Assembly (NCBI RefSeq): GCF_011492945.1
Contig: NZ_CP045119.1
Location: 1,054,001 to 1,118,000, forward strand
Length of the DNA stretch: 64,000 bases
Reading direction: 5' to 3'
DNA from: Rubrobacter tropicus
Lineage (GTDB): Bacteria; Actinomycetota; Rubrobacteria; Rubrobacterales; Rubrobacteraceae
Positions within the stretch are counted from its first letter, which is position 1. Each line of letters begins with the position of its first letter. The translations under genes were made by a program, and so were the position numbers. The notes below the pieces were generated by a model. It saw nothing but the letters and a program-made list of their open reading frames with translations. It made no database searches and was not told where the DNA came from. Below are positions 9,784 to 63,045 of this stretch, piece after piece.

Positions 9784-9875
9784 GGTCAGCTTGTCAGCCC
9801 GCTGCGGCTTCGCCTCCGCTATCAGCCGTCAGCTTTTTGTTCTTGGCTGAAAGCTGAAAGCTGATAGCTTCCAAA
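9784..9875. repeat. TCAGC-unit (heptamer) intergenic repeat
   Basis: It contains TCAGC units in one direction (GTCAGCTTGTCAGC, TATCAGCCGTCAGC) and the complementary GCTGAAAGCTGAAAGCTGATAGC at a period of seven. The 31-base piece 9796-9826 (GCTGCGGCTTCGCCTCCGC core) is shared, nearly base for base, with repeats near 11335, 29300 and 62735. It fills the gap between two convergent genes. Confidence 0.75.
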
Positions 9876-11320: not shown

Positions 11321-11386
11321 CTGCAATGCTGAGAGCGGAGGCGAAGCCGGAGCGTGCTGGCAGGCTGACAAGCTGCCGACCACAGG
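11188..11386. repeat. TCAGC octamer repeat plus shared 31-base module
   Basis: At 11188-11270 TCAGC recurs about every eight bases (seven or eight copies, one 16-base gap), inside the comB reading frame. At 11332-11364 the module AGCGGAGGCGAAGCCGGAGC appears, the reverse complement of pieces at 9796 and 62725. The repeat fills the space up to the phosphotransferase ribosome site. Confidence 0.75.
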
Positions 11387-28762: not shown

Positions 28763-29107
28763 GTGTCCCTGTACATGACGCAGTTCTCTTACACGGCGGA
28801 AGCGTGGAAAGCTCTGGTGAAGAGGCCCGAGGACCGGGCCGCCGTCTTCGCCGAGCACGCGGAGAAGCTCGGCGGGCGGATGGTCTCGCTCTACTACTGC
28901 ATGGGCGAGTTCGACGGCATGGTCATCTACGAGGCCCCCGACGAGAGGACCGCCGCGGCAATAGTCTTCACCGTAGCCTCGCCGGGCCACATCAAAGAGA
29001 CGAAGACGACCCCCCTGATGACCGTCGAAGAGACGATGGAGGCCATGGAGAAGGCGAAGGCCGAAGCCTACCCCGCCCCCAAGCTCTGGTCGCCGATGCC
29101 TAGTTAG
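28763..29107 (+). CDS. GYD domain-containing protein
   Basis: A 114-residue small alpha-beta protein beginning 'SLYMTQFSYTAEAWKALVK', with 'HAEKLGGRMVSLYYCMGEFD' and 'AIVFTVASPGHIKETKTTPL', the pattern of the GYD family (dimeric ferredoxin-like fold, function unknown). GTG 28763 is favoured over 28754 by the spacing from GAGGAGG and by the family N-terminus. A TACAAT box lies upstream at 28661. It is convergent with the Ddl-like gene across a long repeat element. Confidence 0.85.
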   Translation: MSLYMTQFSYTAEAWKALVKRPEDRAAVFAEHAEKLGGRMVSLYYCMGEFDGMVIYEAPDERTAAAIVFTVASPGHIKETKTTPLMTVEETMEAMEKAKAEAYPAPKLWSPMPS

Positions 29108-29343
29108 CACGCCGGCTTCGCCGGCTTTCAGCCCGCTCCGCCCTACGGGCTACGCTCTCAGCACGCTTCGGGCCTTCGGCCCTCGCTTTCAGCTATCAGC
29201 TTCTTGCCGTGAGTGGCCCGACTGGGCCGCGCACCACGCGGCGGCTCGGATGTCGAGAGGCGTCTCGCGCGTAGACGACCGGCTGACAGGCTGAAAGCGT
29301 AGGCGAAGCCGGAGCGGGCTGGACAGCGCCGCAGGCGCTGTCC
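29108..29343. repeat. Long structured intergenic repeat element, copy A
   Basis: It begins right after the GYD stop with TTAGCACGCCGGCTTCGCC and ends as a perfect hairpin abutting the Ddl stop. The first 45 bases match the start of the element at 62646 almost exactly. A middle core (GGCCCGAC, then a GCCGCG...CGCGGC hairpin, then GTAGACGAC) is also shared. TTTCAGC/GCTGAAA heptamers separate the modules. See the long copy at 62646-62953. Confidence 0.8.
29321..29343 (-). terminator. Perfect 10-bp hairpin abutting the Ddl-like stop codon
   Basis: GGACAGCGCC-GCA-GGCGCTGTCC: ten paired bases with a three-base loop, starting at the first base after the stop codon on the minus strand. No T run follows. 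Confidence 0.6.
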
Positions 29344-61805: not shown

Positions 61806-62645
61806 TTGAGGGCGCTCGCCCAAGCAGCCAGGCGCAAGGAGAGCCCGCTCGTGGTGGGCCTTGACCCCGCGCCCCTGCGCTTCCCGGGGGAGCTTCGGGA
61901 TCTGGCGGAGGCACAGGCCACGCTGGAGTTCTGCCTGGGCATCCTCGAGGCCGTCGAGCCCTACGCCGCGGCCGTAAAGCCCCAGGTCGCGTTCTTCGAG
62001 CGTCTGGGCCCCGAGGGGATGAAGGTCTACGCGGCTCTCGTCTCGGCCGCCAGAGACCTCGGCCTGCCCGTGATCTCGGACGCCAAACGCGGGGACATCG
62101 GCCCCGTCGCCGCCGCTTACGCCGAGGCCCACCTACGCCTCTACGGCGCCACGTGCGTAACCGTGAACCCGTACATGGGCTCGGACGCCGTCCTCCCCTT
62201 CCTCGAAGAAGCGCGCCGCCGGGACGCGGGCGGGGGCGTCTTCGCCCTCGTCGCCACCTCCAACCCCTCGTCAGGGGAGATCCAACAGGCGACCGACCCG
62301 CCACTCCACGAAGTCGCCGCCCGCCTGGTCGCGAACCTCGGCCAGAGGGACGGCGACTACCTCGATTGCGGGGCCGTCGTCGGCGCGACCCGCCCCTCCA
62401 TCGGCCGCCGCGTGCGCGAGCTCCTCCCCGACGCGCTCTTTCTCACCCCCGGCTACGGTGCCCAGGGCGGGGGCGCCCCCGAAGTAGTTCCCCTGCTCGA
62501 CGCCCGTGGCGCCGGTGTCCTCGTCAACAGCAGCCGAGCCATCCTCTACGCCCACGAAAAGACATCAACGGACTACCGCCACGCCGCCAGCGAAGCGGCC
62601 CGCCAGGCCCGCGACGACCTCCGCCACGCCGGCGTACGTTGTTAG
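61806..62645 (+). CDS. pyrF: Orotidine 5'-phosphate decarboxylase (group 2)
   Basis: A 279-residue enzyme making UMP from OMP. It has 'PLVVGLDPAPLRFPGEL', 'YAAAVKPQVAFFERLG', the catalytic Lys/Asp in 'VISDAKRGDIGPVAAAYAEA', 'TVNPYMGSDAVLPFLE', 'VATSNPSSGEIQ', 'FLTPGYGAQGG' and 'VNSSRAILYA'. The length and NPYxG pattern belong to the long bacterial (PyrF type 2) branch common in actinobacteria. TTG 61806 lacks a strong ribosome site. The stop directly abuts a repeat element. Confidence 0.93.
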   Translation: MRALAQAARRKESPLVVGLDPAPLRFPGELRDLAEAQATLEFCLGILEAVEPYAAAVKPQVAFFERLGPEGMKVYAALVSAARDLGLPVISDAKRGDIGPVAAAYAEAHLRLYGATCVTVNPYMGSDAVLPFLEEARRRDAGGGVFALVATSNPSSGEIQQATDPPLHEVAARLVANLGQRDGDYLDCGAVVGATRPSIGRRVRELLPDALFLTPGYGAQGGGAPEVVPLLDARGAGVLVNSSRAILYAHEKTSTDYRHAASEAARQARDDLRHAGVRC

Positions 62646-62953
62646 CACGCCGGCTTCGCCGGCTTTCAGCCCGCTCCGCCCTCCGGGCTCCGCCCTCCGG
62701 GCTCCGCCCTCCGGGCTCCGCTCTCAGCACGCTCCGGCTTCGCCTCCGCTTTCAGCTTTCGCCGCGCAAGGCCCGACATGGCCGCGCATCGCGCGGCGGT
62801 CGAGGTGTCGCGGAGCGTAGCGTCCACAGACGACTTGCCGAAAGCCGCGAAGCGGCGAGCCGAAAGTCCCCGGAGGGGACGTGCTGACGAGGCGCGAAGC
62901 GCCGGGCTGAAAGCTCGCGAAGCGAGCGTGCTGCGGGCCGCTCCGCGGCCCGC
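62646..62953. repeat. Long structured intergenic repeat element, copy B
   Basis: These 308 bases without a gene are a mosaic of repeats. They start CACGCCGGCTTCGCCGGC with the same 45 bases as copy A at 29108, followed by four tandem CTCCGCCCTCCGGG-type units. The shared 31-base module (62725-62757) comes next, then a core with GGCCCGAC and a GCCGCGC-ATC-GCGCGGC hairpin. A string of short perfect palindromes completes it (CCCCGGAGGGG, GGCGC-GAA-GCGCC, GCTCGC-GAA-GCGAGC, GCGGGCCGC-TCC-GCGGCCCGC). TTTCAGC/GCTGAAA heptamers join the pieces. The last hairpin overlaps the stop of the next minus-strand gene. Confidence 0.82.
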
Positions 62954-63045
62954 TAGAACAGGTGTGCTACGGAGACTACGGTCACGAGCACCGTCGCCAG
63001 CGCGACCACCGCGCCTATTAGTTGAACCACCGTCTCTCTGGTCAT
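62953..63045 (-). CDS. 30-residue single-TM membrane peptide
   Basis: ATG 63045 follows GAAAGGACC. The peptide starts 'MTRETVVQLIGAVVALATVL' and forms one membrane helix. It is similar in design to the 25-residue peptide at 42774. It lies 19 bases after the TlpA-like gene on the same strand and is probably co-transcribed. Function unknown. Confidence 0.5.
   Translation of the reverse strand: MTRETVVQLIGAVVALATVLVTVVSVAHLF

Follow-up and report, generated by a model that had tools for sequence, protein, structure and literature searches.

A probable new Rubrobacteraceae family of BIME/REP-like interspersed mosaic elements with palindromic arms around a conserved motif

The window analysed here, a 64,000-nucleotide stretch of the Rubrobacter tropicus genome, lies within the 4.38-Mb main contig of an assembly of 4.58 Mb in two contigs (G000; the second contig, C2, measures 205 kb). 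Sequence and gene calls place two of its gaps between convergent genes, the first (at 29108) between a GYD-domain gene and a D-Ala-D-Ala ligase gene and the second (at 62646) between a pyrF-like gene and a small 30-aa ORF, and each gap opens directly at a TAG stop codon. Both begin with the same stretch of about 42 identical bases (GTTAGCACGCC...CCGCCCT), where a preliminary description had given 45, and both contain the GGCCCGAC word, the local hairpin and the GACGAC box reported there. The GACGAC end is a hallmark of the family described below, whereas the exact GGCCCGAC word is a variant of these two copies.

The first copy is flush with the TAG stop of the GYD-domain gene (29105-29107, plus strand). 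Its left arm opens with a type A module (29108-29127, plus strand; sequence, module class and pairing test), a perfect hairpin GCCGGC-TTC-GCCGGC then TT, and continues on the same strand over 29128-29193 as TCAGC, a type B module (29133-29157), TCAGC, a type C module (29163-29188) and TCAGC. A further TCAGC separator (29196-29200, plus) opens the conserved core of about 79 bp (29201-29279, plus), which carries GACGAC at its end and matches our core model with 79.2 bits (G000:C1:1083196-1083289). The core is closed by GCTGACAGGCTGA, an inverted separator pair (29282-29294, plus). The right arm consists of a single, inverted type B module (29295-29317, minus strand, in keeping with the token orientation count given below), and an unstranded 23-bp palindrome, GGACAGCGCC...GGCGCTGTCC (29321-29343; sequence and folding), adjoins the stop codon of the downstream gene.

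The second copy is likewise flush with a TAG stop, that of the pyrF-like gene (62643-62645, plus strand; stop-codon survey and gene calls). Its left arm (62646-62756, plus) reads A, TCAGC, expanded B, TCAGC, B, TCAGC; at 62671-62723 the expanded B module has grown to three tandem 14-bp units (CCGCCCTCCGGGCT), likely a slippage hot spot. The core follows at 62757-62834 (plus; core model match G000:C1:1116752-1116843, 71.5 bits), then a right arm of inverted modules with GCCGA/GCTGA separators (62837-62931, minus), and an unstranded terminal palindrome GCGGGCCGC...GCGGCCCGC (62933-62953; sequence and folding) abuts the stop codon of the small convergent ORF. This 30-aa ORF (MTRETVVQLIGAVVALATVLVTVVSVAHLF; 62953-63045, minus strand) has the look of a single membrane helix and is conserved in the G003 ortholog (L125), and is therefore probably a real small protein. 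Sequence searches also recovered modules elsewhere in the window, close to positions 9796 and 11332 where the preliminary description had noted them: an unstranded, coreless short array at 9789-9865, with one forward B module, TCAGC-spaced repeats and inverted GCTGA repeats, and a second coreless array with one inverted B module at 11328-11376 (minus strand).

Side-by-side comparison of the copies reveals a common plan, in which forward hairpin modules separated by TCAGC are followed by a core of about 79 bp and then by the same modules inverted and separated by GCTGA. The core, TTCTTGCCGCGCAnnGCCCGACCGGGCnGCGCnTnGCGCGGCGGTTCGGGTGTCGGGAGGCGTAACGCnCACAGACGAC, is itself bounded by TCAGC and GCTGA. 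Oriented tokens around 71 distinct cores follow this polarity strictly: on the upstream side 204 are forward against 1 reverse, on the downstream side all 170 are reverse and 0 forward. With its modules inverted across the core, the element as a whole forms a large, imperfect palindrome centred on the core. By length and stem the modules fall into the classes A (CACGC-stem-TTC-stem-GCTT), B (GCTCCGcccTAcgggCTCCGC), C (GCTTCGGcctgcTTCgcaggCCTCGC) and D (CCGGCGCTTCGCGCCTCG). Some modules are nested: in the arms of L003, L017, L021 and L054, type C loops are replaced by a complete type B hairpin.

The columns of the core are very unevenly conserved, with a variance 8 times the binomial expectation. 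Judged by the mean identity of 66% among cores, most copies appear to be old. Core conservation displays no helical periodicity near 10-12 bp, and the spacers to the left and right of the core pair at shuffle level (4 of 33 equal). We also considered the core as a coding fossil and rejected this idea, the conserved columns being free of any codon pattern.

The copy numbers, all of them lower bounds, rest on genome searches and on a 464-kb sample made up of the window and L148-L167. With the first element as query, the whole genome yielded at least 40 scored loci with non-self E-values down to 5e-48, and the list for the second element was similar. The sequence-only core model found at least 86 places at its cut-off of E<=0.01, of which about 82 are strong, full-length matches; some 84 copies lie on the main chromosome. 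Against an expectation of 3.8 (p 0.02), contig C2 has no core among the model matches, which may mean that this replicon is younger, or else exempt. By contig strand the cores number 46 plus and 36 minus, with no clear bias relative to the replication strand. Coreless arrays amount to 74 in the 464 kb with lax tokens, against 5 in first-order Markov resamples, and to 10 with strict tokens; both counts are uncertain.

Among 40 relatives, represented by fragmented assemblies, the core model detected at least 8 cores in G004, at least 8 in G005 and at least 13 in G003, all of the same genus, and weak full-length matches with the same ends and a different interior in G002, G006 and G014. A module pattern scan over 84,980 species gave repeated matches only in Rubrobacteraceae/Rubrobacter records and in the assembly 'Actinobacteria bacterium isolate 28', and single matches only in other taxa. 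The dispersed mosaic family proposed from two copies is supported, with far more than two members in the genome and further cores in its congeners.

Gene context was read with a home-made codon-usage ORF caller trained on the 464 kb. Seventy of the 71 tested cores lie between genes, the remaining one at a locus edge; 28 are in convergent, 40 in codirectional and 2 in divergent gaps, compared with 33, 115 and 42 among the sample gaps of at least 100 bp (chi-square p 9e-8). Arrays mostly begin within about 10 nt of a stop codon, and the adjoining stop is TAG in 70 of 90 cases versus 152 of 340 for array-free genes (Fisher p 1.5e-8). In many cases the separator (GCTAGTCAGC) itself contains the TAG, or CACGC follows it, and the last codons of array-bearing genes differ from those of array-free orthologs (L017, L058), suggesting that neighbouring genes can take their stop codon from an array. 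TAG is also the commonest stop in the 464-kb sample as a whole (180 of 378 by the home-made gene calls), which is unusual for a GC-rich actinobacterium and only in part explained by the repeat.

Across species, the same loci may share the element, be empty, be cut to one module or carry an inverted core. At the 29108 site of G003 the two flanking genes are direct neighbours; the site has 95 bp of unrelated sequence and an AGCTAG stop but no element. In G002, G004, G005 and G006 another sequence lies upstream. At the 62646 site G003 has the same flanking genes and a core in the same orientation with other arms. Most cores of G003-G005 sit at loci that have a core in G000 or another congener as well. 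At five loci (L153/L131/L285, L012/L279, L009/L280/L289, L047/L283/L291 and L046/L290) the core, judged against its flanking genes, points in opposite directions in different species. Orthologous cores of G000 and its congeners are mostly no closer than non-orthologous ones, which fits replacement, and plain saturation too, because the flanks are only about 76-92% identical; for the closer pair G003/G005 the ortholog is the best match at two of four loci. In about 795 kb of G004, 13 matched G000 loci include 3 with a core and 4 without the element, the rest showing one module, remnants, or arms around another centre, counts that are not rates since these stretches were picked partly for holding cores. 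The absent or single-module state was found in G004 at L017, L058 and L012.

MITEs and other non-autonomous elements are short and dispersed and have fixed ends, and our family resembles them in these respects. It could be a MITE mobilised in trans by some transposase; TCAGC/GCTGA would then serve as its terminal repeats, and insertion would favour TAG or CTAG where genes end. The TAG enrichment and the empty sites are consistent with such an origin, as are conserved ends around unrelated interiors, found in relatives and also in G000 itself, where core variants combine identical ends (TCAGCTTCT..., ...AGACGACTnGCTGAAAGC) with unrelated interiors of about 100 bp and simple TCAGC-spaced arms (L337, L338, L339, L340, L342). 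Unlike with MITEs, neither a target-site duplication nor a partner transposase was detected: duplications were not seen at the pairs of filled and empty sites, where the intergenic sequence is too strongly diverged, G000 has no Y1/RAYT transposase (positive controls worked), Y1 genes occur in 3 of 39 family genomes but never beside modules, and DDE_Tnp_1 genes were found at only two loci, which do not carry the element end motifs. In the searches, which covered these two transposase families, the element ends were found only around other short interiors. Nor did a longer autonomous element with identical ends turn up, the orphan ends leading to other interiors of about 100 bp and not to genes. 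The TCAGC 5-mer, moreover, stands between all hairpin modules and is not just a terminal repeat, and the age of most copies also speaks against a MITE. The earlier suggestion of a non-autonomous mobile element is compatible with presence and absence among species, its empty sites included, but neither the duplication nor the partner was found, and we regard a MITE as unlikely, if the strongest of the alternatives.

Somewhat more doubtful is a model in which the arms provide the framework for a cassette-like exchange by recombination between the inverted hairpins. Cores that differ in their interiors but have fixed ends (TCAGCTTCT.../...AGACGACTnGCTGA) would be swapped, inverted and spread among gene 3' ends, with no transposase of their own, and the system would also supply new stop codons to adjoining genes.

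The elements might instead be bidirectional transcription terminators, multiplied by selection for termination, with the core as a passive spacer. Their hairpins start a few nt past the stop codon, an incoming transcript would meet a stem and then TT(T)C, and the convergent and 3' positions agree with this role. What termination leaves unexplained is a core of about 80 bp conserved in about 84 places, together with fixed core ends around changed interiors. A proper T tract is also missing from the modules, and neither window element contains a match in a simple scan for terminators. We thus judge this model rather improbable.

A structured RNA, either 3'-end regulatory or small, with the core as its functional fold, was the other suggestion of the preliminary description, and the position of the copies at gene 3' ends and the strong conservation of some core columns agree with it. 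The core itself does not behave as an RNA. RNAalifold predicts 0 pairs over 48 core copies, mutual information gives no pairing signal, and the hairpin named earlier (GCCGCG/CGCGGC), whose pairing is indeed kept between the 29108 and 62646 copies, fails across the family, with 73% of cells paired versus 74% in shuffles and 1 double change versus 4.0. Single cores fold about like shuffles (z -0.7 to -2.0), and at the Rfam gathering score neither the window nor seven copies gave a match for the element, the only strong match among the seven copies being an ordinary tRNA in a flank. Cores also lie in both directions with respect to transcription, and their orientation changes from one species to another. 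The proposed conserved structured core is not supported, and an RNA of this kind is very improbable.

The structured part of the element is the flanking arm modules, and the compensatory change expected in the core sits in their stems. In 22 A modules, 97.7% of stem cells are paired and both sides have changed in 23 cells versus 4.7 in shuffles, while slid controls collapse. Whole window elements, folded as single strands, reach z -5.3 and -5.5 and are thus far more stable than shuffles, since each arm pairs both internally and with the opposite arm. The stems of 113 modules contain 595 Watson-Crick and 28 G-T pairs, an excess that argues for DNA palindromes more than for selection on RNA. Uneven conservation without conserved pairing is what a bound DNA motif would present, and we infer that the core may be one.

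Chance similarity of GC-rich intergenic palindromes can be dismissed, for although high GC makes short GC hairpins common and a 17-base core word, allowing 3 mismatches, shows no enrichment in the window, tens of dispersed copies have E-values of 1e-20 to 1e-48 and the arms keep a strict polarity.

We therefore favour, with a probability of roughly 60%, a new Rubrobacteraceae family of BIME/REP-like interspersed mosaic elements, built as DNA-level palindromes around a conserved motif. In such a family, insertion or recombination at the 5-bp separators would lengthen and shorten the arrays, and copies might be spread or overwritten by transposition or by ectopic gene conversion guided by the arms. 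Recombination between arms would account for replacement, mixed orientation and module turnover with no enzyme of the element's own, although transposition by an unrecognised enzyme may be at work instead. The arms, being inverted repeats, could let the core land or flip either way round, and gene 3' ends would be the places where copies are tolerated or preferred. The element may serve as a 3'-end hairpin or as a protein-binding site. The two most likely activities would be a central protein-binding motif between the palindrome sets, as in IHF-binding BIME-1/RIB, and hairpins acting as a cap or a terminator for transcripts that come in from either direction.

Palindromic mosaic repeats have been well studied in proteobacteria, where their spread is explained by RAYT transposases. 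In the open-licence literature on Rubrobacter repeats we found no description of the present element. The closest parallel in anatomy is BIME-1/RIB of enterobacteria, two inverted REPs around an IHF-bound central motif at the 3' ends of transcription units (PMC2817692, citing Boccard and Prentki 1993). Our family shares with it several inverted palindromic units combined with a conserved central motif, a mosaic build and many extragenic copies behind genes. It differs in having four stem types, several modules per side and a TCAGC separator in place of the REP consensus, and in its core, which is about 79 bp long, unrelated in sequence and variable in orientation between species; IHF binding is a feature of BIME-1/RIB, whereas protein binding by the Rubrobacteraceae core is a prediction.

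REP and REPIN sequences, a GTAG-tagged superfamily associated with RAYT transposases (PMC3116915, PMC3733652), are likewise short, high-copy palindromes between unidirectional and convergent genes. In contrast, the module consensus of our family, TCAGCACGC-stem-GCTTTCAGC, has no GTAG tag beside the stem, and G000 encodes no RAYT. Because both the module sequence and the RAYT search speak against it, the family is not a member of the REP family and is a BIME by anatomy. The CGTC-tagged REPs, published for other phyla in a survey whose main text makes no mention of Rubrobacter or Actinobacteria, come nearer in being high-copy palindromes without a dedicated transposase (PMC3733652). We found no core of about 80 bp between units described there, and the CGTC found in the complement of our core (GTCGTC) does not stand beside a stem.

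A rich family with BIME-like anatomy thus occurs in a deep actinobacterial lineage without a RAYT; here a core can point in opposite directions at one locus in different species, and the separators contain stop codons of adjoining genes. The Rubrobacter family makes it possible to ask, in a natural setting, how such repeats propagate in the absence of RAYTs, and whether the BIME plan, with hairpins placed behind genes on either side of a binding motif, evolved more than once.
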